The notes beneath the pieces are model-generated. The model did not search any database, was not told where the DNA came from, and was given only the letters and a program-made list of their open reading frames with translations. DNA of 64,000 nucleotides, from assembly GCF_013391105.1 (NCBI RefSeq), contig NZ_CP058335.1:2046001-2110000 (forward strand), read 5' to 3'. How positions within the stretch are numbered: position 1 is the first letter of the stretch; each line of letters starts with the position of its first letter. Positions 28,717 to 54,048 of this stretch are shown piece by piece. Source of the DNA: Natronomonas salina (GTDB lineage: Archaea; Halobacteriota; Halobacteria; Halobacteriales; Haloarculaceae). The position numbers were made by a program, and so were the translations under genes.

Positions 28717-29514
28717 TCAGCCGCGCCGCGGGAGGAACGCCAGGGCGGCGATGAGGAACGCCGAGAACAGGCTGAAGATGATGACGTAGTTCAGCCCGCT
28801 CAGCCGCTGCTGGAAGTACTCCTGGTGGCCGGCCTGCTCCTGGTAGCTGGCGACGTCCTCCGAGAGCATGACTGTCTGGTCGTCGGGGAACGTCGCGACG
28901 TACGTCTGGTTGTCGACGGTGACGTTCTCGCCCTCTGCGAGGGTCTCCGACTGCTCCTCCTCGGTCTCCCAGGTGAGCGCGACCGACTCGCTGGTCACGT
29001 TCTCGGCGGTCTTCGACTCGTTGTCGTGCTCGACGGTGTCGTTCTCGGAGTAGGTCACTTGGTTCGGTTCGGGGAGGTACTCCTCGAGCGGTTCGGTGCT
29101 CCCGTCGCGGTAGCGGACGAACTCGGTCCCGTCCTCGGCGGTGTACGTCTGGTTGTCCACCTCGGAGTCGTTCTGGAGGATGCTCTCGACGTCGAACTCC
29201 TCGGTCAGGCCGAACCGGTCCGGGTCCTCGGCCGGTTCGATGGTGACGTTGTAGCTGGCGTCCTCGAACTCGACGGCCGAGTTGTTGTCCCAGGAGTCCT
29301 CGTTCGAGACAGTCTCGTTGTACACGAGCGAGCCGGACCCGCCCTCCACCTCCACGGTGTAGGTGGTGCCGTTCGTCTCGAACGTATCGTTGTTCTGGTA
29401 CGTCTCGCCCTCCATGTCGATCTCCGGTCCCTCCGCGAGCGCCTGCACGCCGTAGGCACCGGCGGCCGTGACGAGGAAGAAGGCGAGGCAGATCGCCGCC
29501 CATCGTCGTTGCAT
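28717..29514 (-). CDS. Exported membrane-anchored protein with many N-glycosylation sites
   Basis: The 265-residue protein has an N-terminal signal or anchor (residues 1-27) and an acidic beta-rich exterior domain with more than ten N-x-S/T sequons (NDTF, NGTT, NVTI, NQTY). The C-terminal hydrophobic helix ends in LPRRG. No PGF motif is seen. It is the divergent neighbour of the surface-protein array beginning at 29821. Function unknown. Confidence 0.75.
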   Translation of the reverse strand: MQRRWAAICLAFFLVTAAGAYGVQALAEGPEIDMEGETYQNNDTFETNGTTYTVEVEGGSGSLVYNETVSNEDSWDNNSAVEFEDASYNVTIEPAEDPDRFGLTEEFDVESILQNDSEVDNQTYTAEDGTEFVRYRDGSTEPLEEYLPEPNQVTYSENDTVEHDNESKTAENVTSESVALTWETEEEQSETLAEGENVTVDNQTYVATFPDDQTVMLSEDVASYQEQAGHQEYFQQRLSGLNYVIIFSLFSAFLIAALAFLPRRG

Positions 29515-29820
29515 ACGCGGGAGAATGGCAGGCCCGCGTATAGGCGTTACTAACTCTCGTGAGGTCCGGAACGGAACCGCTCGTCGCGAGCGAGCGGCGG
29601 GCGGGCTAGGCGCACGACCGCGGCGATGGCGGAACTCACGACCGTGGTCCGGGATCTGCGCTGGGTATGGGGCCAGTCGAACTACGTTCCAGCTTCGATT
29701 CGATGTATCTAATCCTGTTAAAGAATAACCGAGAGAACCTTTCAGTGGTTCATCAGTATAAGAACCCCGGCAAATTGCCTGCAGCGGATATACGTCTGTG
29801 ATTACCAATGGAAGAGTTGT
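29515..29820. promoter_or_regulatory. Divergent intergenic region before the surface-protein array
   Basis: This 306-base gap holds no convincing gene. Toward the right it becomes AT-rich (29700-29765), with TATA-like TGTTAAAGAA at 29716-29725 and AGTATAAGA at about 29755-29763, the latter about 60 bases before the first array gene. This suggests a 5' leader of around 35 bases. Confidence 0.45.
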
Positions 29821-30936
29821 ATGACAGACGAGACAATGACGAAGACGTCACTGCGGTCGGTCGCGCTGATCGTCGTCGGCGTGGCCGTCGTCGGAGCGTT
29901 CGCGGCAGTCGTGATCGGTCCGGCCGCCGCAGACCACACCGACTACGAGAACGGAGATTACACGGTCGTACTCCCGCACAACTCGGACCACCTTCCGGGC
30001 AACCAGAACGAGGAGAACGCGAGCATGCAGAACTTCGCGCAGTCTGGCGACGCGATGCGGGAGGCGGGAGCGCCCAACGGCTTCGAGACGCTCGAGTACC
30101 TCGAGACTGGCTCCCCGGAGATCGACTACTCCGGTTGTAGCAGCGCCAACACCGCCGTCTTCGGCGTCGACCGCGGCAACAACAACTCCGGGACCAAGAC
30201 GGACACCGACCTCCTGAAGCACATGAAGGAGTCACGGTTCAAGGAGCACAAGATCGAGGTCGAGTTCTACAGCGAGGACGACCTCGGCGGGAACCCGACC
30301 TACCTCAACCCTGAGGACGCCATCGTCTCCGTGCAGGGTGCGGGCTCCTCGGGCGGCCCCTGCTTCACGATGCCCACCGAACCCGGCTGGTACCAGACCA
30401 ATGGGCTGGTCCGCGGCACCACGGAGGACGGCGAGACCGTAGAGGTCACCTCGGAGTCCCACTACTTCCCGATCTGCGAGGGCTGCCACAACGAGGAGAC
30501 GGCCCGAGAGAAGCTCGGTCCGAAGCCGAGTGCGGACGGCGGTACCACGGACGACGGCGGTGACGAGTCGACGCCGACGCCGACCTCGACCGCCCAGGAC
30601 GACACCGGCGGCGATGGCGACGGCGACGCCACTGCGACGCCGACGTCCGATTCCACCGACGACACGACGGGCGACACCACAGACACGACGGACGATACCA
30701 CCGACGACACCACAGACACGACGGACGACACCACCGACGACGGCGGCGAGCAGACCAGCGGCGACCAGAATACCGACGGGCAGAACGGCGGCGCCGAACA
30801 GAACGATACCGGCGGGAACGGCTCGGCGGGCCAGAGCGACGCCACGCCGACGCCCGGCGGCGGTCCCGGCTTCGGGCCGATCGTCGCGATACTCGCGGTG
30901 CTCGGCGCGGCGCTGCTCTCGATGCGGCGTCGGTGA
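29821..30936 (+). CDS. PGF-CTERM surface protein, type A, copy 1
   Basis: The 371-residue exported protein has a signal peptide (to about Ala37), a globular domain to about residue 235, a Thr/Asp-rich stalk, and a C-terminal sorting signal with PGF followed by a helix and RRR. PGF-CTERM proteins are processed and lipid-anchored by archaeosortase ArtA (family knowledge). Four Cys at 106, 181, 219 and 222 lie in DYSGCS, GGPCF and ICEGC. Shared blocks are DHLPGNQNEE, FGVDRGNNN and PEDAIV. It is closest to the third array gene (32343). Function unknown. Confidence 0.85.
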   Translation: MTDETMTKTSLRSVALIVVGVAVVGAFAAVVIGPAAADHTDYENGDYTVVLPHNSDHLPGNQNEENASMQNFAQSGDAMREAGAPNGFETLEYLETGSPEIDYSGCSSANTAVFGVDRGNNNSGTKTDTDLLKHMKESRFKEHKIEVEFYSEDDLGGNPTYLNPEDAIVSVQGAGSSGGPCFTMPTEPGWYQTNGLVRGTTEDGETVEVTSESHYFPICEGCHNEETAREKLGPKPSADGGTTDDGGDESTPTPTSTAQDDTGGDGDGDATATPTSDSTDDTTGDTTDTTDDTTDDTTDTTDDTTDDGGEQTSGDQNTDGQNGGAEQNDTGGNGSAGQSDATPTPGGGPGFGPIVAILAVLGAALLSMRRR

Positions 30937-31053
30937 ATCCGTCCCCGAGCGGGGCGGACCGGCCGTCTGGTGAGGGCCGTTAGCGGTTGACAGGGATAAA
31001 CGGCCCAACATATCCAGCGTTACCCTTAGGATATTGGTTGGCTATGGACGGCT

Positions 31054-32181
31054 ATGCCCCGCATTCGAGAGTTGAGTGTTACCGTCGTGGCGACGGCCCT
31101 CGTGCTGTCGCTCGCGGCGACGACCACCCTCCTCGGCGTCGGCGTCGCCGGCGCCGCACACCCCGACGACGCACCGGACCTCTCCGAGTACGCCGACTTC
31201 CAGGTGAACTTCCCGAACCCCTCCGACCACTACCCCGGCGACCAGAACCCCGAGGGCGGCAGCATCGAGTACTTCGCCTCCGGCGCCGACGCCTTCCGCC
31301 AGCAGGACGCCGAGGAGGGCGTCTACATCGACCGGATCGTCGTCCACGCCGAGTACGAGGGCGAAGACTGGATCGACTACTCGGCCTGCAGCACCGACAA
31401 CACCGAGTCCTTCGGCATCGACCGCGGCAACGACAACGACGGGACGGAGTACGACGAGGGCCTCGTCCAGCGGCAGAAGCAGGTCGACTTCCGGGACGAC
31501 GGCATCGACATCCAGTTCTACAAGTGGGGGGACCTCGGCGGTGACCCGCCGTACATGGCTCCCGAGGACGCCATCGTCGCCTCCCAGGGCGAGGGGTCGG
31601 CCGGCGGGCCGTGCCTGACGCTGACGAACGAACCCGGCTGGTACCGCATCGCCGCCTACCTGCAGGGGACCGTCGCCGACAACGGCCCCGACCAGCAACC
31701 CTCCGACAGCGCGGGGGAGGTCAGCCTCGAGCTGAACTCCAACAACTACCTCTACGTCTGCGAGTGCGACAGCGAGGAGGAGGCCCGCGAACAGCTCGGC
31801 GCCCCGCCGAACGAACGGTCGGGCGGTCAGGAGACCCCGGAGCCGACCGAGACAGACCCCGGCGGCGACGAAACGCCCGAACCTACCCAGACCGATACCG
31901 GCGGCGACGAAACGCCGGCGCCGACCCAGAGTGGCGGCGGCGACGCGACGCCCGAACCCACCCAGGAGAACACCGGCGGCGACGAAACGGCGGAACCCAC
32001 TCAGAACAACAACGGCGGCGACGGCGGCCAGACCAGCCAGGGCGGTGACGACACCACCGGCGGCAACGGCGGCGACGACACCGACCGGACGCCGACGCCC
32101 GGCGACGGTCCCGGCTTCGGCGCGCTCGCGGCGCTGCTCGCCCTGCTCGCCTCGGCACTGATCGCGCTTCGTCGCGACTGA
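31054..32181 (+). CDS. PGF-CTERM surface protein, type B, copy 1
   Basis: The 375-residue protein has a signal peptide, a domain with DHYPGDQNPEGGSI, DYSACSTDNT, FGIDRGND and GGPCLTL, and then a stalk and a PGF-CTERM end. Cys are at 112, 187, 236 and 238. The last two form CEC (NYLYVCECDSEEEAREQLGA) instead of the type A CEGC. The stalk contains repeated ETPEPTQT-like units. Its nearest relative is the fourth array gene. The 117-base gap before it suggests its own promoter. Confidence 0.85.
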   Translation: MPRIRELSVTVVATALVLSLAATTTLLGVGVAGAAHPDDAPDLSEYADFQVNFPNPSDHYPGDQNPEGGSIEYFASGADAFRQQDAEEGVYIDRIVVHAEYEGEDWIDYSACSTDNTESFGIDRGNDNDGTEYDEGLVQRQKQVDFRDDGIDIQFYKWGDLGGDPPYMAPEDAIVASQGEGSAGGPCLTLTNEPGWYRIAAYLQGTVADNGPDQQPSDSAGEVSLELNSNNYLYVCECDSEEEAREQLGAPPNERSGGQETPEPTETDPGGDETPEPTQTDTGGDETPAPTQSGGGDATPEPTQENTGGDETAEPTQNNNGGDGGQTSQGGDDTTGGNGGDDTDRTPTPGDGPGFGALAALLALLASALIALRRD

Positions 32182-32342
32182 GACCCCCGCGGCCCCTCCT
32201 CCATCGATCCCCGAACGTGGAGCCAATCCCACTCCTGAATATACGTCCGCCGGTTATTGACGGCTCTCGGTAGAAACAACCGGGGAGTTCCGGTAATTTA
32301 ACAAAGGTTTTTACCCTACGAGCTGGAGTTACGTATCAGTTC

Positions 32343-33374
32343 ATGACCAAATACGTTCGATTTAGAAACACCGCTCTGGCGACGGTCGTGGTGCTCGCGA
32401 CGGTCGCCGCGGTGACCGTCGTCGGTGCCGGCGCGCTCGTCGTCGGGACCCAGGAGGCGGCTGCGGCCCACGATAGCGCGGCCAACTACACCGTCACGCT
32501 GCCGAACGAGGACGACCACCTGCCCGGCGACCAGAACCCCGAGGGCGCGAGCATCAAGCACAACGCCGCCGGCGGGGAGTCGTTCGACGACGTCGCCCCG
32601 AACGGGTTCGAGACCTTCGACCGCCTCGAACTCCAGAGCGACCACGTCGACTTCTCGGCGTGTACGAGCGAGAACACTGCCGTCTTCGGCGTCGACCGCG
32701 GTAACAACAACCCCGGCACCCAGACCGACGACAGCCTCCTCCAGCACATGAAGGACTCCACCTTCAGCGAGGACAGCCTCGAGGTCGTCTTCTACGACGA
32801 GGGCGACCTCGGCGGGAGCCCGACCCACCTCAACCCCGAGGACGCCATCGTGGCACTCCAGGGTGCGGGCTCCTCGGGCGGCCCCTGCTTCACGATGCCC
32901 ACCGAACCCGGTTGGTACCAGATCAGCGGGACCCTCGAGGGGACCAACCACGACGGCGAGTCGGTGACCATCGAATCGAAGTCCCACTACTTCCCGATCT
33001 GCGAGGGCTGCCACGACGAGGCCACCGCCGAAGAGAAGCTCGGTCCGGCACCGAGCAAGGAGGGCGGCGACCCCGACCCGACGCCGACGGCGACCGAGAC
33101 GCCCGTCGAGGTGACGGCGACCGAGGAACCCGGCGAGGCCACGCCGACGGCGACCGCCACGCCGGAAGGCGCGACCGGCGGGGACTCCACGGCGACGGCG
33201 ACCGAGGCGTCGGGCGACGAGACGCCGGCGGCACGCGCGACGGAGGGCGGCTCCGCCGGCGGCGCCCAGGGTGACCACCAGGGCACGCCGACGCCCGGCG
33301 GCGGTCCCGGCTTCGACGCGCTCGCGGCGCTGCTCGCCCTGCTGGCCGGTGCGCTGCTGGTCCGACGACAGTAA
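32343..33374 (+). CDS. PGF-CTERM surface protein, type A, copy 2
   Basis: The 343-residue paralogue of the 29821 gene shares GSSGGPCFTMPTEPGWYQ, LNPEDAIV and SHYFPICEGCH nearly unchanged. Cys are at 107, 182, 220 and 223. The stalk is Thr/Glu/Pro-rich and shorter, and the end is PTPGGGPGF plus a helix. A TTTTTACC TATA-like element about 30 bases upstream of the ATG fits a leaderless start, unlike copy 1. Function unknown. Confidence 0.85.
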   Translation: MTKYVRFRNTALATVVVLATVAAVTVVGAGALVVGTQEAAAAHDSAANYTVTLPNEDDHLPGDQNPEGASIKHNAAGGESFDDVAPNGFETFDRLELQSDHVDFSACTSENTAVFGVDRGNNNPGTQTDDSLLQHMKDSTFSEDSLEVVFYDEGDLGGSPTHLNPEDAIVALQGAGSSGGPCFTMPTEPGWYQISGTLEGTNHDGESVTIESKSHYFPICEGCHDEATAEEKLGPAPSKEGGDPDPTPTATETPVEVTATEEPGEATPTATATPEGATGGDSTATATEASGDETPAARATEGGSAGGAQGDHQGTPTPGGGPGFDALAALLALLAGALLVRRQ

Positions 33375-33509
33375 CGCGCGAACCGGCCCTCGAGGGCCGT
33401 GACCGACGCCCCGAGGACCGTCCGAGAACCGAACGCGGATATTTTCGACGCATCCTGACATAAATAGCAGCGAATACACAGCGATATCGTTAGATACGTA
33501 GTAACAAGG

Positions 33510-34586
33510 GTGTGGAGCATGGGACGAAGGGAGATCGACGCGGTGGTGCTGGCGACGCTCGTCACCCTGAGCGCCGTCGCCGGCGTCGCCGCTCTCAGCG
33601 CGGTCGCATCGCCCGTCGCCGCCGACCAGCACACGGTCGACACGGCGACGGACTACACGGACGAGGCGAACTTCACGGTGGCCTTCCCGTTCACGACCAA
33701 CCACTATCCAGGCGACCGGAACGCCGAGAACGGCAGCATCCAGTACTCGGCCGTCGGCGAGCAGGCGATGCGCGAGGTGGACGCCGAGGAGGGTGCCTTC
33801 ATCAGCCACATCGTCATCTCGGCCGACTGGATCGACTACTCGGCCTGCAGCACCGACAACACCGCGGCGTTCGGTATCGACCGCGGCGACGACGACCCGG
33901 GCACGGAGTACGACGAGGACCTCGTCAGCCGGATGAAGGAACCGACCTTCCGCGACGACGGGCTCACCGTCGAGTTCTACAACTGGGACGACATCGGCGG
34001 CGATCCGCCCTACGCGGCGGCGGACGACGCCATCGTCGCCGAGCAGGGCGCCCGGTCGTCGGGCGGCGCCTGCCTGACGCTCACCGACGACCCAGGCTGG
34101 TACCAGGTCCAGGGGTTCATCAACGGCACCGAGGCCGACAACGGTCCCGACCAGCAGCCCTCCGAGGACGCCAACCACGCCGGCATCCTGGCGATGTCGA
34201 ACTACCTGTACGTCTGCGAGTGCGACAGCGAGGCCGAAGCCCGCGAACAGCTCGGCGCCCCGCCGAACGAGGAGCCGACCGGCGGGGAGACGCCGACGCC
34301 CACCGCGACGGAGTCGGGCGAGGACCCCACTCCGACGGCGACCGAGGGCGGCGACACCGGTGCCGACCCGACCCCGACGGCCACCCAGAGCGGCGGCAGC
34401 GGGGCGACGACGACACCCACGGCCACCCAGGGTGGTGACGGCCCCACCCCCACGCCTGGCGGTACAGCCGGCGGCCAGGGCGACGACAGTACGACGCCCA
34501 CGCCAGGTGACGGCCCCGGCTTCGGCGCGCTCGCGGCGCTGCTCGCCCTGCTCGCGGGTTCGCTCCTCGTCCATCGACGCGGTTGA
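33510..34586 (+). CDS. PGF-CTERM surface protein, type B, copy 2
   Basis: This paralogue of the 31054 gene has 358 residues if the GTG at 33510 is used; an ATG at 33519 is the alternative. It shares WIDYSACSTDNT, GGDPPY, NGPDQQPS and NYLYVCECDSEAEAREQLGA with copy 1. Cys are at 113, 188, 236 and 238, and the end is PGDGPGF plus a membrane helix. It is the last of the four-gene array and lies 240 bases before the ABC-transporter binding protein on the same strand. Confidence 0.84.
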   Translation: MWSMGRREIDAVVLATLVTLSAVAGVAALSAVASPVAADQHTVDTATDYTDEANFTVAFPFTTNHYPGDRNAENGSIQYSAVGEQAMREVDAEEGAFISHIVISADWIDYSACSTDNTAAFGIDRGDDDPGTEYDEDLVSRMKEPTFRDDGLTVEFYNWDDIGGDPPYAAADDAIVAEQGARSSGGACLTLTDDPGWYQVQGFINGTEADNGPDQQPSEDANHAGILAMSNYLYVCECDSEAEAREQLGAPPNEEPTGGETPTPTATESGEDPTPTATEGGDTGADPTPTATQSGGSGATTTPTATQGGDGPTPTPGGTAGGQGDDSTTPTPGDGPGFGALAALLALLAGSLLVHRRG

Positions 34587-34826: not shown

Positions 34827-36272
34827 ATGGCCGACGTGCCAGAGAACGAACAGCAAGAGGAAAACGAGGGGCGGCTCGACCGGCGTTCGGTCCTCAAGTA
34901 CGGGGGGACCGGCGCCCTCGGCGCCGGGCTCGCCGGCTGCCAGAGCCGCGAGAACCCCCTTCCGGGGAGCAATATCAGGCCCCCCGAGAGCGAGGATGGC
35001 GGCGTTGGCGGTAACGTCAAGGACGCAGAGGGACCCCTGGAGGGCGAGACCTTCAAGATCGGCGTGCTCGCGCCGATGGAGCTCCCTCTCGGAGAATCGA
35101 TGTGGCAGGCAGCACAGATGGCCGCCGAAGAGATGAACGAGGCCGGCGGGCTGCTCGGCGCCTCGGTCAAGGTCGAACTCGGCGACACCGAGGTGTCACC
35201 GGGGAAGGCCCAGTCCGAACACCGGCGGCTCACAAGTCAGGCGGGTTGCGACATGACCGTCGGTGTCTTCCTCGGTTCGGCGTTGCTCCAGACGATGACG
35301 TCGATCGCCAACCAGCAGAAGCTCCACGTGACCACGGCGGCGGCCGACCCCCGCGTCGGGAAGCTGGTCTCGAAGTCCGCAGCCTATCAGCAGGGTGCCG
35401 ACCCCCAAGAAGAGTACGAGAAGTACAAGTACCACTTCCGCGCCGGCCCGATCCACCTGCTCGACCTCGCCGACGCGATGCTTGAGTTCATCGAGGACAA
35501 GAAGGACGAGTACGGCTGGGAGCGAGCCGCGCTCCTGACGGAGGACATCGGCGAGTTCACGCCGTACGCCGACCGGCTCCAGGAGCGGCTCAGCGACGTC
35601 ATCGACGTCCCCATCTCCCAGCGGCCGGGCGGCGTCAGCGATTGGTCGCCGCTCTACAGCGATATCGAGGAGGCAGACTGCGACGTCGCGCTCATCGGGA
35701 TGGCCCTCGGCGGCACCACCGCCGTCAACCAGTGGGCCCAGCAGCAGCGCGACTTCGAGTTCGGCGGCATCCACGTGTTCGCCCAGTCTTTCGAGTACTG
35801 GGAGTCGACCGACGGCAACGTCGAGCACGTCTTCACCATGAACGCGATGACGCCGCAGACGGAGAACACGGACACCACCCAGGAGTTCGTCCAGAACTTC
35901 GTCGACACGTGGGAGAGCGTCCCCATCTACACGGCGCCGATCACCTACGACGCGATCAGCACGATCGAGGAGGTCTTCGCGGCCATGCACGAGGAGGAGG
36001 GTCTCGACGGCACCCCGGAACCCGACGCCGTCATCCCGTACCTCGAGGACATGACCTTCACCGACTCGACCATCCTCGAGGAGGTCCAGTTCACGCCGGC
36101 CGACGCCGAGTACGCCCACGAGCCGCAGTGGACCTCCATCGCCGAGACCGGCGTCCCGGTGTTCCAGCAGTGGCAGATGGACGAGGAGATCCGCGAAGAC
36201 TACGGGACGATGCACTCGTTCTACCCGCCGGAGAACAAGACGGCTGAGAAGACCGAACCGGAGTGGTTGTAA
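34827..36272 (+). CDS. livK: Branched-chain amino acid-type ABC transporter substrate-binding protein (Tat lipoprotein)
   Basis: The 481-residue binding protein has a twin-arginine signal (RLDRRSVLKYGGTG) and a lipobox ending LAGCQ. The mature part is a periplasmic-binding-protein type I fold of the LivK/AmiC class (FKIGVLAPMELPLGESM, AAQMAAEEMNEAGGLLG, ITYDAISTIEEV). It delivers a ligand, likely an amino acid or amide, to the permeases encoded next. The ligand cannot be told from sequence alone. A TATA-like CTTAAATG lies near 34762. Confidence 0.9.
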   Translation: MADVPENEQQEENEGRLDRRSVLKYGGTGALGAGLAGCQSRENPLPGSNIRPPESEDGGVGGNVKDAEGPLEGETFKIGVLAPMELPLGESMWQAAQMAAEEMNEAGGLLGASVKVELGDTEVSPGKAQSEHRRLTSQAGCDMTVGVFLGSALLQTMTSIANQQKLHVTTAAADPRVGKLVSKSAAYQQGADPQEEYEKYKYHFRAGPIHLLDLADAMLEFIEDKKDEYGWERAALLTEDIGEFTPYADRLQERLSDVIDVPISQRPGGVSDWSPLYSDIEEADCDVALIGMALGGTTAVNQWAQQQRDFEFGGIHVFAQSFEYWESTDGNVEHVFTMNAMTPQTENTDTTQEFVQNFVDTWESVPIYTAPITYDAISTIEEVFAAMHEEEGLDGTPEPDAVIPYLEDMTFTDSTILEEVQFTPADAEYAHEPQWTSIAETGVPVFQQWQMDEEIREDYGTMHSFYPPENKTAEKTEPEWL

Positions 36273-36274
36273 CT

Positions 36275-37177
36275 ATGGCAGGCATCACAGGCGCGATACT
36301 GACAGCGACGTTCATCAGTGCACTGTACGCGATCATCGCGATCGGCTTCACGCTGATCTTCGGCGTCGGGGGCGTCCTCAACTTCGCCCACGGCGCCTTC
36401 ATCACCGTGGGGGCGTTCACGGCGATGATCGTCTCGAGTAGCTCGGGGCTCGACCTCCCGATAGCCGTCGGCCTCCTGGCCGGCACCCTCATGGGCGCGG
36501 TCATCGGCGCCGGGACCTACCTCGGCGTCATCCGCTACGTCCGCAAGCGACCGGTGACGGTCCTGATACTCACGTTCGTCATCGGGTTCTTCATCATGTA
36601 CGCGCTGCGGATCCTGGCGAACGACATCATGAACGTCAACGCCCTCCAGATCCCCGTCTCGCCGGTGATCAACGAGGGTCGCTTCGGCATCGGCGCGAGT
36701 ACGCTCAACAACCTCTTCATCTTCGTCTCGTCGTGGGTCCTCATCGGGGCGCTGATGTGGTTCGTCAACTATACGCGGACCGGCCGCGCCATCATCGCGG
36801 TCAGCCAGAGCGACAAGGGCGCCTCGCTGGTCGGCATCAACGCCGAGAAGATCAACGTCATCACGTGGACGCTGGCGGGCGCCTTCGCCGGCTTCGCCGG
36901 CGTCCTGCTGGCCGGCCGCCTCGGCGGCGGCAGCTGGCTGATGGCCATCGACCCGCCGGCGCCGCTCGTCCTGTCGTTCGCCATTGTCATCCTCGGCGGA
37001 CTCGGCTCCATCAAGGGCAGCGTCGTCGGAGCCTACATCATCGGCTTCTTCGAGACGTTCACGGTCAGCTTCGTCCCGAACGGCTCCCAGCTCGCGGGCA
37101 TCTCGTCGCTGGCGCTACTACTGGTGTTCCTGATCGTGAAACCCGAAGGACTGTTCGGTAGGGAGGCTGCAGAATAA
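36275..37177 (+). CDS. livH: ABC transporter permease, LivH family
   Basis: The 300-residue membrane protein has the LivH signature GVGGVLNFAHGAFITVGAF and the EAA-like loop region near DPPAPLVLSFAIVILGGLGS. It starts at the ATG at 36275, two bases after the binding-protein stop; an earlier in-frame ATG overlaps that gene. It shares one base with the next permease gene (TAATG). Confidence 0.92.
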   Translation: MAGITGAILTATFISALYAIIAIGFTLIFGVGGVLNFAHGAFITVGAFTAMIVSSSSGLDLPIAVGLLAGTLMGAVIGAGTYLGVIRYVRKRPVTVLILTFVIGFFIMYALRILANDIMNVNALQIPVSPVINEGRFGIGASTLNNLFIFVSSWVLIGALMWFVNYTRTGRAIIAVSQSDKGASLVGINAEKINVITWTLAGAFAGFAGVLLAGRLGGGSWLMAIDPPAPLVLSFAIVILGGLGSIKGSVVGAYIIGFFETFTVSFVPNGSQLAGISSLALLLVFLIVKPEGLFGREAAE

Positions 37178-38409
37178 TGGCTACGCAAAACCCACTCGAC
37201 GGCGACGTGCAGAAGCGACGCAAGCAGGCCGTCAAGGAGCGGCTCAAGTTCGGCAACCTGCCGCTGCGCCACCGGCTCGGCGCCTACGGGTTCGTCATGC
37301 TGGGGCTGCTGCCGGTGATCCTGCAGCCCTCGGAGCTGCTCAACTTCACGTACGTCCTGTTCCTGATGATGTTCGCCATCAGCTGGGACGTCGTCTCCGG
37401 CTACACCGGCCAGCTGAGCTTCGGGCACGCGTTCTTCTTCGCGCTCGGCGGCTACGGCACGGCCGTCATCACGACCCAGCACAACATGCCCATCTTCGTG
37501 GGCATCGCGGGCGCGACGCTCCTGGCCGCCATCGGCGGCGTCCTCATCGGCGTCCCCGCGCTCCGGCTCGACGGGCCGTACCTCTCGCTGGTGACGCTCA
37601 TTGCACCGCTGCTGCTCTTCCAGATGTTCGTCCTCTTCAGCGAGGGGCTGCCGTTGCTCGCCCCGCAGGGGCTCGGCGGCACCGGCGGCCTGACCGTGCA
37701 GCCGCCGCAGCTTGTCAGCATCGGCGACGGCGCGTTCATCACCGTCGAGACGACGATGATGGAGTCGCTGGGGCGGTACTACGCGGCCTTCATCGCGCTG
37801 CTCATCGTCTTCGGGGTCTGCTACGCCGTGACCCGCTCCTCCGCGGGGAGCGTCTTCACCGCCATCCGCGAGGACGAGGACGCGGTCCGCTCGGCCGGCC
37901 TCAACCCCGCGAAGTTCAAGATCTTCGCGTTCGTGCTGGCGGGCGCCGTCGGCGGCTTCGCCGCCGCCGTCTGGATGCACGTCGGCCCGTTCGGCTACCC
38001 CAACACCGAGAACCTCTTCGGCCCGGGGAAGATCGACCTCAGCATCGAGGTCATCGTGATGGCCATCCTCGGCGGCATGGGGACCATCGTCGGCGCGGTC
38101 GTCGGCGCGCTGCTGTTCGCGGCCACGACCGCGCTCGTCGGCTGGCTTGACTTCACCATCCCCGTGCTGGGACTGGAGTTCTCCGCCCTCTCGCCGCTGC
38201 CGGAGTTCCTGCTCGCCATGCTGACGCTCGTGTTCATGCCGGAGGGCGTCGTCCCCCGGAACATCAAGGACGGCCGGAAGCTGCTGGCCCGCTACCGCGG
38301 CGAGGCGCCGCCGGAGCCGGCCGACGCCGACGGCCGGTCGGCCTCCGAAAGCGTCGTCTCGAAGTACCGCGACGAGATCGAGGAGATCATCGGAGGTGAC
38401 AACAGATGA
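37177..38409 (+). CDS. livM: ABC transporter permease, LivM family
   Basis: The 410-residue permease has the LivM motif VVSGYTGQLSFGHAFFFALGGYG and IREDEDAVRSAGLNPAKFKIFAF. It has a 30-residue basic N-terminal extension and a long C-terminal cytoplasmic tail. The stop overlaps the ATPase start by four bases (38406-38409). Confidence 0.93.
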   Translation: MATQNPLDGDVQKRRKQAVKERLKFGNLPLRHRLGAYGFVMLGLLPVILQPSELLNFTYVLFLMMFAISWDVVSGYTGQLSFGHAFFFALGGYGTAVITTQHNMPIFVGIAGATLLAAIGGVLIGVPALRLDGPYLSLVTLIAPLLLFQMFVLFSEGLPLLAPQGLGGTGGLTVQPPQLVSIGDGAFITVETTMMESLGRYYAAFIALLIVFGVCYAVTRSSAGSVFTAIREDEDAVRSAGLNPAKFKIFAFVLAGAVGGFAAAVWMHVGPFGYPNTENLFGPGKIDLSIEVIVMAILGGMGTIVGAVVGALLFAATTALVGWLDFTIPVLGLEFSALSPLPEFLLAMLTLVFMPEGVVPRNIKDGRKLLARYRGEAPPEPADADGRSASESVVSKYRDEIEEIIGGDNR

Positions 38410-39194
38410 GCACCGAACCGGAACGCGCCGCGGTCGACGACCGGACGTACGGTCCCGACGACGGGATCCTCGTCGCAAAGGACCTCCGCAAGGAGTTCGG
38501 CGGTCTCGTCGCCGTCGACGACCTCTCCTTCGCGGTGCAGGAACAGGAGATCCTCGGCTTCATCGGCCCGAACGGCGCCGGGAAGTCGACGACGTTCAAC
38601 TGCGTGACCGGCACCTACCCGCCGACCGACGGCACGGTCTACTTCAAGGGCCGCGACGTCACCGGCATCCCCGCCCACGAGATGGTCAAGGAGGGGATGG
38701 CCCGGACGTTCCAGGAGTTCGCCCCGCTGGAGGACCGGACGGTCGTCAAGAACGTCGAGCTCGCGCTGGCCCCCGACGAGTTGTTCACGCTGTCGGGGAT
38801 GGGCGGCGAGACCGAGCGGCTGGCCGAGGAGATCTGCCGCCGCGTCGGCCTCGGCGAGGTCCTCGACCAGACGCCCTCGGAGCTACCCCACGCCGGCATG
38901 CTGAAGCTGGAGCTGGGCCGCGCCATCGCGACCCAGCCCGACCTGATGCTCGTCGACGAGCCGTTCGCCGGCCTCTCCGGCAAGGAGGTCGAGGAGCTCT
39001 CCGAGGTGATGCGCTCGCTGCGCGACCACGGCATGACGCTCATCGTCGTCGACCACAACATGCGCGGCCTGCTGAACCTCATCGACCGGGCGTTCGTCAT
39101 CCAGTTCGGCTCGAAGATCGCCGAGGGGAGCCCCGACGAGATCAAGAACGATCCCCAGGTCCAGGAGGCGTACCTCGGAGGTGACGAGATATGA
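38406..39194 (+). CDS. livG: ABC transporter ATP-binding protein, LivG family
   Basis: The 262-residue ATPase has Walker A GPNGAGKSTT, Walker B LMLVDEPFAGLS, and the LivG C-terminal HNM/LIDRAFVIQFG region. The ABC signature reads ELPHAGMLKLELGRA rather than the usual LSGGQ, a known LivG-type variation but more divergent than most. It is coupled to livM and livF by four-base overlaps. Confidence 0.92.
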   Translation: MSTEPERAAVDDRTYGPDDGILVAKDLRKEFGGLVAVDDLSFAVQEQEILGFIGPNGAGKSTTFNCVTGTYPPTDGTVYFKGRDVTGIPAHEMVKEGMARTFQEFAPLEDRTVVKNVELALAPDELFTLSGMGGETERLAEEICRRVGLGEVLDQTPSELPHAGMLKLELGRAIATQPDLMLVDEPFAGLSGKEVEELSEVMRSLRDHGMTLIVVDHNMRGLLNLIDRAFVIQFGSKIAEGSPDEIKNDPQVQEAYLGGDEI

Positions 39195-39967
39195 GCGCGC
39201 CGACGGACGACGAGGCCGACCGCTTCGAGTTCCAGTCGACGTCCGACACGACACAACAGCGGCCGACCGTCCTCGAGGCCGAGGACCTCCGGGTCTCCTA
39301 CGGGAAGGTCACCGCGCTGCGCGGCCTCGACCTCGAGGTGCGGCAGGGCGAGATCGTCTCGCTCATTGGCCCCAACGGCGCCGGCAAGACCACGTTCGCG
39401 AACACCGCCTCGGGTTTCCTCGACTACCAGGGGAGCGTCCGCTACCGCGACCAGGAGGTCGCCACGGTCGGCCAGACCGAACTCGTCGAGCAGGGGATGA
39501 TCCACTGCACCGAGGAGCGCGACCTCTTCGGCTACCTGGACGTCGAGGACAACCTCGAACTCGGCGGCTACCTGCAGGACGACGCCGTCATCGAGGAGCG
39601 CAAGGAGTTCGTCTACGACCTCTTCCCGCGGCTCGACGAGCGCCGCGAGCAGAACGCCCGCTCGATGTCCGGCGGCGAACAGCAGATGCTCGCCATCGGC
39701 CGCGCGCTGATGGGCGACCCCGACCTCCTCATCCTCGACGAGCCGACGCTGGGGCTGGCACCGGTCATCCTCCAGGACATCGCCGAGGCGCTCGACCCCA
39801 TCGTCGAGCAGGGCGTCACGGTGCTGCTCACCGAGCAGAACGTGACCTTCGCGCTCAAGCACGCCGACCGCATCTACCTGCTCGAGAACGGCGAGGTCGC
39901 CAAGGAGGGCACCCCCGAGGAGCTCAAGGGCGACGACTACATCCGGGAGTCCTACCTCGGCGGGTAA
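39191..39967 (+). CDS. livF: ABC transporter ATP-binding protein, LivF family
   Basis: The 258-residue second ATPase has Walker A GPNGAGKTTFANT, the signature ARSMSGGEQQMLAIGRAL and Walker B LLILDEPTLGLAP. It ends the five-gene operon, which is complete: binding protein, two permeases and two ATPases. The acidic N-terminal 30 residues are a typical haloarchaeal extension. Confidence 0.93.
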   Translation: MSAPTDDEADRFEFQSTSDTTQQRPTVLEAEDLRVSYGKVTALRGLDLEVRQGEIVSLIGPNGAGKTTFANTASGFLDYQGSVRYRDQEVATVGQTELVEQGMIHCTEERDLFGYLDVEDNLELGGYLQDDAVIEERKEFVYDLFPRLDERREQNARSMSGGEQQMLAIGRALMGDPDLLILDEPTLGLAPVILQDIAEALDPIVEQGVTVLLTEQNVTFALKHADRIYLLENGEVAKEGTPEELKGDDYIRESYLGG

Positions 39968-41056: not shown

Positions 41057-42007
41057 ATGAAGCCGCGCACGACCGCCGCCCTCGCCCTCCTGGTCCTCGT
41101 CGCCGCGTCGCTCGCCCTCCTCGCGGCCCCGGCCGCCGCCGGTCACGGCGAACAGCAGGCCGACTTCACGGTCGACCCGGATAGCCACGACACCGGCGCG
41201 GAGTCGGTCAGCTACGAACTGACCGTCGAACTGGCCGACTCCGTCGACCGGGCGCCCACCGTCGCCTACCCGGACCGGATCGTCTTCGCGGTCGAGGGCG
41301 CGAACCTCGACGCCTGCGAGTCGGGCGGCTTCTTCGGGGGGCCGAACTACGAACTCGGCGTCAATCAGACGACCGCAGACGGCTATCAGTTCCAGCCGTA
41401 CGCGGTGGGCGACGTGACCTGGGACGGCGAGGCCGTCGTGTTCACGTTCGACGACAGCGACAACGACGACCAGCCGAACTACGGCCAGGGCGACAGGCTC
41501 GAACTGCGCCTGGACTCCTGCGTGGCGAACGCCGGCGACGACGGCTGGTACCTCGGGGGCGTCAACGTCACGGGCGGCTCCCGCACCGACCGGACCGTGA
41601 CGTTCGGCCGCCTCGTCCCCGCCCACTACTTCGGTATCTGTGACGGCTGCCGGTCGGACGCCGACGCCCACGAGTCGATGGGGGCCCCGCCGTCCGAGCA
41701 GACGCCGACCCCGACCGCCACCCCGACGCCGGCGGTCACGGAGACCCCGACGCCCAACGGACTGCAACTGCCGACGGAGACCTCGACGCCGGTCCGGGTC
41801 GGATCGCCGACCGGCACGGCGACGCCGCCGCCGAACGAGACGCAGACGTCCACCGGGACGGCTATCGACGGCGCGGCGGGCGACGGCGACCCCGCGGAGC
41901 GGGACCCCGCCGACCCGGAGGTCTTCGGGATGAACCCCCTGGCCGTCGTGGGGATGATCGCCCTCGCCTCCCTCGGCCTCGCGGCCCTCGGCGCGCGGCG
42001 GGTCTGA
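41057..42007 (+). CDS. Diverged Cys-motif surface protein with membrane anchor
   Basis: The 316-residue exported protein keeps the hallmark C-terminal block HYFGICDGCRSDADAHESMG, close to type A of the array at 29.8-34.6 kb, and CVANAGDDGWYLGG, equivalent to the Cys-GWY block. Cys are at 87, 155, 195 and 198. The N-terminal half differs, and the end has a membrane helix but no PGF motif. A TTTTTATC TATA-like element sits about 30 bases before the ATG. It is likely a distant relative of the array. Confidence 0.78.
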   Translation: MKPRTTAALALLVLVAASLALLAAPAAAGHGEQQADFTVDPDSHDTGAESVSYELTVELADSVDRAPTVAYPDRIVFAVEGANLDACESGGFFGGPNYELGVNQTTADGYQFQPYAVGDVTWDGEAVVFTFDDSDNDDQPNYGQGDRLELRLDSCVANAGDDGWYLGGVNVTGGSRTDRTVTFGRLVPAHYFGICDGCRSDADAHESMGAPPSEQTPTPTATPTPAVTETPTPNGLQLPTETSTPVRVGSPTGTATPPPNETQTSTGTAIDGAAGDGDPAERDPADPEVFGMNPLAVVGMIALASLGLAALGARRV

Positions 42008-53983: not shown

Positions 53984-54048
53984 CTGTCGTGTCCTTCCGC
54001 TCGACGGCCCGTAGTTATCACCTTCCTACTGGATCTGTACGCCGCCCG

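Follow-up and report, generated by a model that had tools for sequence, protein, structure and literature searches.

The Four-Gene Array and the Adjoining Import Locus

The window analyzed here is a stretch of 64,000 nucleotides from the 3.75 Mb genome of the haloarchaeon Natronomonas salina, in which positions 29821–34586 hold four tandem paralogous open reading frames, all full-length and on the forward strand. Gene 1 (A1; 29821–30936) encodes a signal peptide, an immunoglobulin (Ig)-like domain with a CEGC end, a stalk of 110 residues and a PGF-CTERM tail. Gene 2 (B1; 31054–32181) has the same architecture, with a CEC end and a longer hairpin insert (ADNGPDQQPS). Gene 3 (A2; 32343–33374) is built like gene 1 and gene 4 (B2; 33519–34586) like gene 2, the start codon of gene 4 being either the GTG at 33510 or the ATG at 33519. 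All four are coding, with a third-position GC content of 0.89–0.92. Gene 1 is homologous to gene 3 (E = 6.6e-96), gene 2 (E = 6e-63) and gene 4 (E = 3e-53), and domain identity is 63% between A1 and A2, 62% between B1 and B2, and 42–46% between the A and B types. In each protein, a signal peptide, judged by eye to be of the Sec type, precedes a domain of about 200 residues, a Thr/Gly/Asp-rich stalk of 81–110 residues and the PGF-CTERM tail. An insert of ten residues further distinguishes the two types and appears in structure models as a longer hairpin loop.

The array is followed on the same strand by the genes of a Liv-type (amino-acid-type) ABC importer. The first encodes its substrate-binding protein (SBP; 34827–36272), assigned by a Peripla_BP_6 match (PF13458, 9.7e-29) and by synteny, and having an N-terminus like that of a Tat lipoprotein. 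It is followed by permeases of the LivH type (36263–37177) and LivM type (37177–38409), both matching PF02653, and by ATPases of the LivG type (38406–39194) and LivF type (39191–39967). Against solved structures the SBP gives weak matches (4n03, 1.6e-5; 3ip5, 0.0015), and models for urea and branched-chain transport score the importer far under their cut-offs. At the far end of the operon, past an opposite-strand CAAX protease, lies a distant relative of the four genes (41057–42007, forward strand), of the CxxC type and with a variant C-terminal tail. A family profile built without this gene recovers it at E = 1.6e-10, and the alignments agree; its place after livF is conserved in four genomes. 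The distant relatives (41057–42007, L069:18486, L070:13269 and L078:6333) share a tail that is not of the PGF-CTERM type, FG[MV][DN]P[LF]xVVG...ALGARRL, which may represent another kind of sorting signal. Two further features were observed in this genome. A Peripla_BP_6 gene elsewhere (G000:C1:3742065-3743150) is split by an in-frame TGA, probably reflecting the decay of an importer gene, and between positions 54001 and 64000 of the window the GC content falls from about 70% to 51–57%, suggesting an integrated element or recent transfer.

The Protein Family

The N. salina genome contains five further full-length members away from the array, in addition to the distant one at 41057–42007. In a survey of 391 Halobacteria genomes, the family was found in seven, all of one GTDB family, including 5 of the 11 sampled members of the window's genus; since seven candidates were scored per genome, copy numbers are lower bounds. 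A scan of named genomes added Haloglomus, Halorarius and several metagenome-assembled genomes, bringing the collection to 66 distinct proteins. The family is kept across at least three genera. For the head domain of about 200 residues, Pfam and NCBIfam gave no match, and only the C-terminal tail is recognized. The family is real and coherent, with a conserved core (FGIDRGNNN...TD, GWY) that is not hypervariable. It is not described in the titles and abstracts searched on PGF-CTERM arrays, branched-chain transport and Natronomonas, and, as far as these searches reached, it is undescribed.

Predicted Fold and Surface Anchoring

AlphaFold models were built on alignments of 37 relatives for the domains of A2 (32463–33056; pLDDT 93.3, pTM 0.87) and B2 (33654–34268; pLDDT 92.5, pTM 0.86). 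Both are predicted to form an Ig-like beta-sandwich with a short C-terminal helix just ahead of an LGPPP motif. Foldseek, run with A2 only, returned TTHA1873 (E = 3.8e-5) together with adhesin domains, and VIA-align, run with both models, gave TTHA1873 (Z 9.1–9.2), YcnI (8.1–8.5), and UafA, ClfA and pilins (7–8.7), the ligand-binding domains of the adhesins ClfA, UafA and Als being among the fold matches. Z-scores near 8–9 support the modelled Ig-like fold and point to no particular function.

The tails were scored with the PGF-CTERM profile TIGR04126 (cut-off 24.5 bits), which describes a PGF motif, a transmembrane helix and basic residues. Genes 1, 2 and 4 pass it (30.2, 35.0 and 32.9 bits), and gene 3, at 23.0 bits, falls just below, with its GPGF, helix and RR all present. 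Two genes for archaeosortase A (ArtA; TIGR04125) occur in the same genome, at 324.9 and 305.5 bits; both are far above the cut-off, and they lie less than 4 kb apart (G000:C1:578898-579761 and 581608-582459). The mechanism of PGF-CTERM anchoring has been established in Haloferax (PMC8559796). From the tails, the two ArtA genes and this mechanism, we infer that the four proteins are cut and lipid-anchored by archaeosortase A.

Association with Liv-Type Import Loci

At least one family gene directly adjoins SBP-livHMGF in eight genomes, namely N. salina itself, its congener G288, N. gomsonensis, Natronomonas CBA1123, two Haloglomus, QS_4_70_19 and G306; at the H. halophilum locus, the stretch examined ended before livMGF. 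The conserved block comprises a common gene, the array, the SBP gene and livHMGF. The gene at 28717–29520 was considered as a part of the system and set aside as a mere neighbor, being a common haloarchaeal gene present in 95 of 145 genomes. Two associations concern other loci: H. halophilum has another array, four genes long, next to a different livG-livM-livH-SBP cluster (L064), and in CBA1123 a family member adjoins livM, the SBP gene and livH at a further Liv locus (L100). With about eight Peripla_BP_6 loci in some 3700 genes, the chance of Liv adjacency is roughly 0.4% per site. This rough figure treats the sites as independent, although common ancestry among the loci is possible. That family genes directly adjoin three distinct Liv loci is thus unlikely to be due to chance.

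On this basis we tentatively propose, at somewhat below an even chance, that the four genes encode lipid-anchored surface proteins that would assist the Liv-type importer by capture or docking. The attachment to three distinct loci and the distant member placed after livF in four genomes argue for such a role. Against it, genome G310 has the whole Liv locus and the 41057-type gene with the array absent, most single copies of the family lie near regulators rather than Liv genes, only one of the roughly eight Peripla_BP_6 loci of N. salina carries the array, and in Haloglomus and G306 the array points away from the importer genes. Its orientation relative to SBP-livHMGF in Haloglomus, QS_4_70_19 and G306 (L054, L055, L071 and L080) is the reverse of that in the Natronomonas group (the window, L052, L069 and L070). 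Among other Halobacteria, thirteen related Liv loci contain no family member, as would be expected if the family is absent from those genomes.

The same array could instead encode adhesins or recognition proteins. Anchored Ig-like heads, expanding as a lineage-specific set, would then serve contact with cells, surfaces or polymers, or would vary so as to evade viruses, with the Liv locus only a site where tandem duplication was tolerated. We regard this as possible, if on the unlikely side. The fold matches are mostly adhesin domains (ClfA, UafA, Als and pilins), copy number and sub-type differ between close relatives, and dispersed copies lie away from Liv genes. However, any Ig-like sandwich commonly draws adhesin-type matches, the core is conserved and not hypervariable, and a family tied to three different Liv loci and retained in at least three genera fits poorly with a merely tolerated site.

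Single Copies and Adjacent Regulators

Most single copies, away from Liv genes, adjoin a regulator of the HVO_0513_N/HTH_10 type (PF24278 + PF04967). An orthologous regulator stands beside the singles at L020, L057, L058, L059, L062, L065, L066, L072, L075 and L079 and that of G288 (L157), mostly divergent and across a short gap (at L063 it is about 1.4 kb away), and a paralogous one beside those at L019, L083 and L073. The N. salina genome has only 12 regulators with HVO_0513_N and HTH_10. The adjacency could mean that the ancestral unit was an envelope sensing or response module, made up of a surface protein and a divergent regulator, with the Liv arrays as derived copies. Much of the adjacency, however, traces to one inherited locus with a macro protein, the regulator, the family gene and an aldo-keto reductase, and in genome G099 the same flanks and the regulator are kept while the family gene is missing. 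The adjacency is therefore in part the descent of a single locus, and the arrays themselves are without such a regulator. We consider a sensing origin improbable.

Cysteines and the History of the Array

The original prediction saw in the alternating order A-B-A-B the duplication of an ancestral two-gene unit, whose products would work together, perhaps as a heteromeric receptor or a metal-binding pair. The cysteines, at residues 106/181/219/222 in gene 1, 112/187/236/238 in gene 2, 107/182/220/223 in gene 3 and 113/188/236/238 in gene 4, agree with its description of a CEGC (CxxC) domain end common to genes 1 and 3 and a CEC (CxC) end common to genes 2 and 4. They also bear out an identical spacing of the first two cysteines in all four, with the correction that an offset of 75 leaves 74 residues, not 75, between them. 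This fixed spacing follows from homology; the same offset recurs throughout the B-B-B-B arrays of two congeners and, in a third, for four genes out of five, whereas elsewhere in the family it ranges over 64–99. In an alignment of 66 domains, the first two cysteines (C1 and C2) are present in 66/66 and the last two (C3 and C4) in 64/66. Four cysteines occur in 58 members, six in 6, two in 2 and an odd number in none. The two members without C3 and C4 (L019 of N. salina and its G288 orthologue L083) miss both together, and the six with six cysteines have one extra pair. In exported proteins, even numbers and joint loss point to disulfides, probably C1–C2 and C3–C4, rather than to thiolate ligands of a metal; a metal-binding cysteine cluster is thereby disfavored. 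A B sub-type bearing its extra pair within the hairpin insert (e.g., GCNEEGNPDC) was seen at L052:9182, L070:4350, L061, L074 and L076.

Phylogenetic analysis upholds A (genes 1 and 3) and B (genes 2 and 4) as alternating paralogous sub-types. Trees that group neighbors, 1 with 2 and 3 with 4, are ruled out by approximately unbiased (AU) tests (A1+B1, p-AU 4e-70; A2+B2, p-AU 4e-120), and A and B are hence real sub-clades. The step from there to duplication of a conserved A-B unit is not supported. A1 pairs with gene 2 of the G288 array (support 99/87) and A2 with gene 1 of that array (99/94). The G288 array runs A-A-B-A-B (A2' A1' B A'' B), and in it the orthologues of A1 and A2 are adjacent and in reversed order. 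On these trees, the split between A1 and A2 is older than the separation from G288. The closest relative of B2 is a dispersed copy within the N. salina genome (98/99), and B1 groups weakly with another such copy (93/55). Exclusive groupings of A1 with A2 (p-AU 0.023) and of B1 with B2 (p-AU 0.019) are both disfavored, which speaks against a plain duplication of the unit. A single clade of the four B copies of the N. salina genome is not rejected (p-AU 0.38), leaving some room for an A-B duplication followed by dispersal.

Nor does the alternation recur in the other genomes compared. N. gomsonensis and CBA1123 each have a B-B-B-B array with no A, and the CxC ending alone is found in the three-gene array of QS_4_70_19 and in every Haloglomus array, those of H. 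halophilum comprising five and four genes. The A type was seen in two genomes only, with B present in both, and B-B-B-B arrays in other Natronomonas indicate that B is independent of A. From the differing orders and sub-types in relatives, A-B-A-B is best read as one local arrangement of a variable, changing array, and an obligate A+B pair is, on the genomes compared, not a conserved unit. The two sub-clades do stand side by side in two genomes; nevertheless, the G288 order, the arrays without A, the absence of exclusive sister pairs and the even cysteine numbers make a heteromeric receptor or metal-binding pair very unlikely. Least likely of all, and only faintly plausible, is surface metal (copper) handling in the manner of YcnI, which ranks near the top of the fold matches (Z 8.1–8.5), since such Z-scores are common, identity to YcnI is 6–11%, a Pfam scan up to E = 1 finds no DUF1775 in the four proteins, and none of the array neighbors noted is a copper gene.

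A Possible External Layer of the Importer

Under the accessory capture or docking role that we favor, each paralogue, after export, would be cleaved and given its lipid anchor by archaeosortase A, and would display a single Ig-like domain, braced by disulfides, on a stalk that is probably glycosylated. Encoded by a variable-copy array attached to a Liv-type import locus, these proteins may bind the importer's substrate, a carrier of that substrate or the surface-tethered SBP, so that the transporter would be better supplied locally. Specificity would differ among the paralogues (A, B and others), with no single obligate A-B complex. The broader form of this proposal, in which a new, lineage-restricted family of archaeosortase-anchored Ig-like proteins constitutes the external capture layer of the importer, its tandem arrays being swappable and a distant member standing at the operon's far end, we hold to be unlikely as a whole, though worth stating: if it were true, changes in the array would retune which substrates reach the importer. 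To our knowledge, the passage of substrates across the S-layer to surface-anchored archaeal importers is largely unexplored. A surface-protein family with no existing model, tied to Liv-type loci and varying in copy number between close species, is a gene set open to deletion and assay, and it illustrates that what looks like an A-B-A-B pattern can be a single moment in the history of a changing array.

Comparison with Known Systems

The best fold match to A2 and B2 is TTHA1873 of Thermus thermophilus (Z 9.1–9.2 over 142 residues), at 8–11% identity; a literature search on this protein found no paper. The copper-binding YcnI (DUF1775) is likewise a surface-exposed Ig-like sandwich (Z 8.1–8.5). 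MSCRAMM-type adhesins (ClfA, SdrG and UafA; fold Z 7–8) resemble the array proteins in having an Ig-like sandwich head, a repetitive stalk and a C-terminal sorting signal. They differ in having two adjacent IgG-like ligand-binding domains and an LPXTG sortase signal, whereas here a single domain of about 200 residues, with two likely disulfides, lies between signal peptide and stalk and the tail is PGF-CTERM; identity is 4–12%. The PGF-CTERM-anchored ABC substrate-binding protein (TIGR04281) is also an ArtA-anchored component linked to an ABC importer, but the full-length match fails, the tail alone matching at 20.0 bits against a cut-off of 325. The PGF-CTERM (ArtA-sorted) surface proteins of haloarchaea (TIGR04126/PF18204) have in common with the array proteins a signal peptide, a low-complexity stalk, the PGF motif, a transmembrane helix, a basic tail and ArtA in the genome, and what sets the array proteins apart is a head of about 200 residues that lacks a Pfam or NCBIfam model. 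The array proteins would belong among the ArtA-anchored Ig-like surface proteins, and it is their genomic attachment that is unusual.
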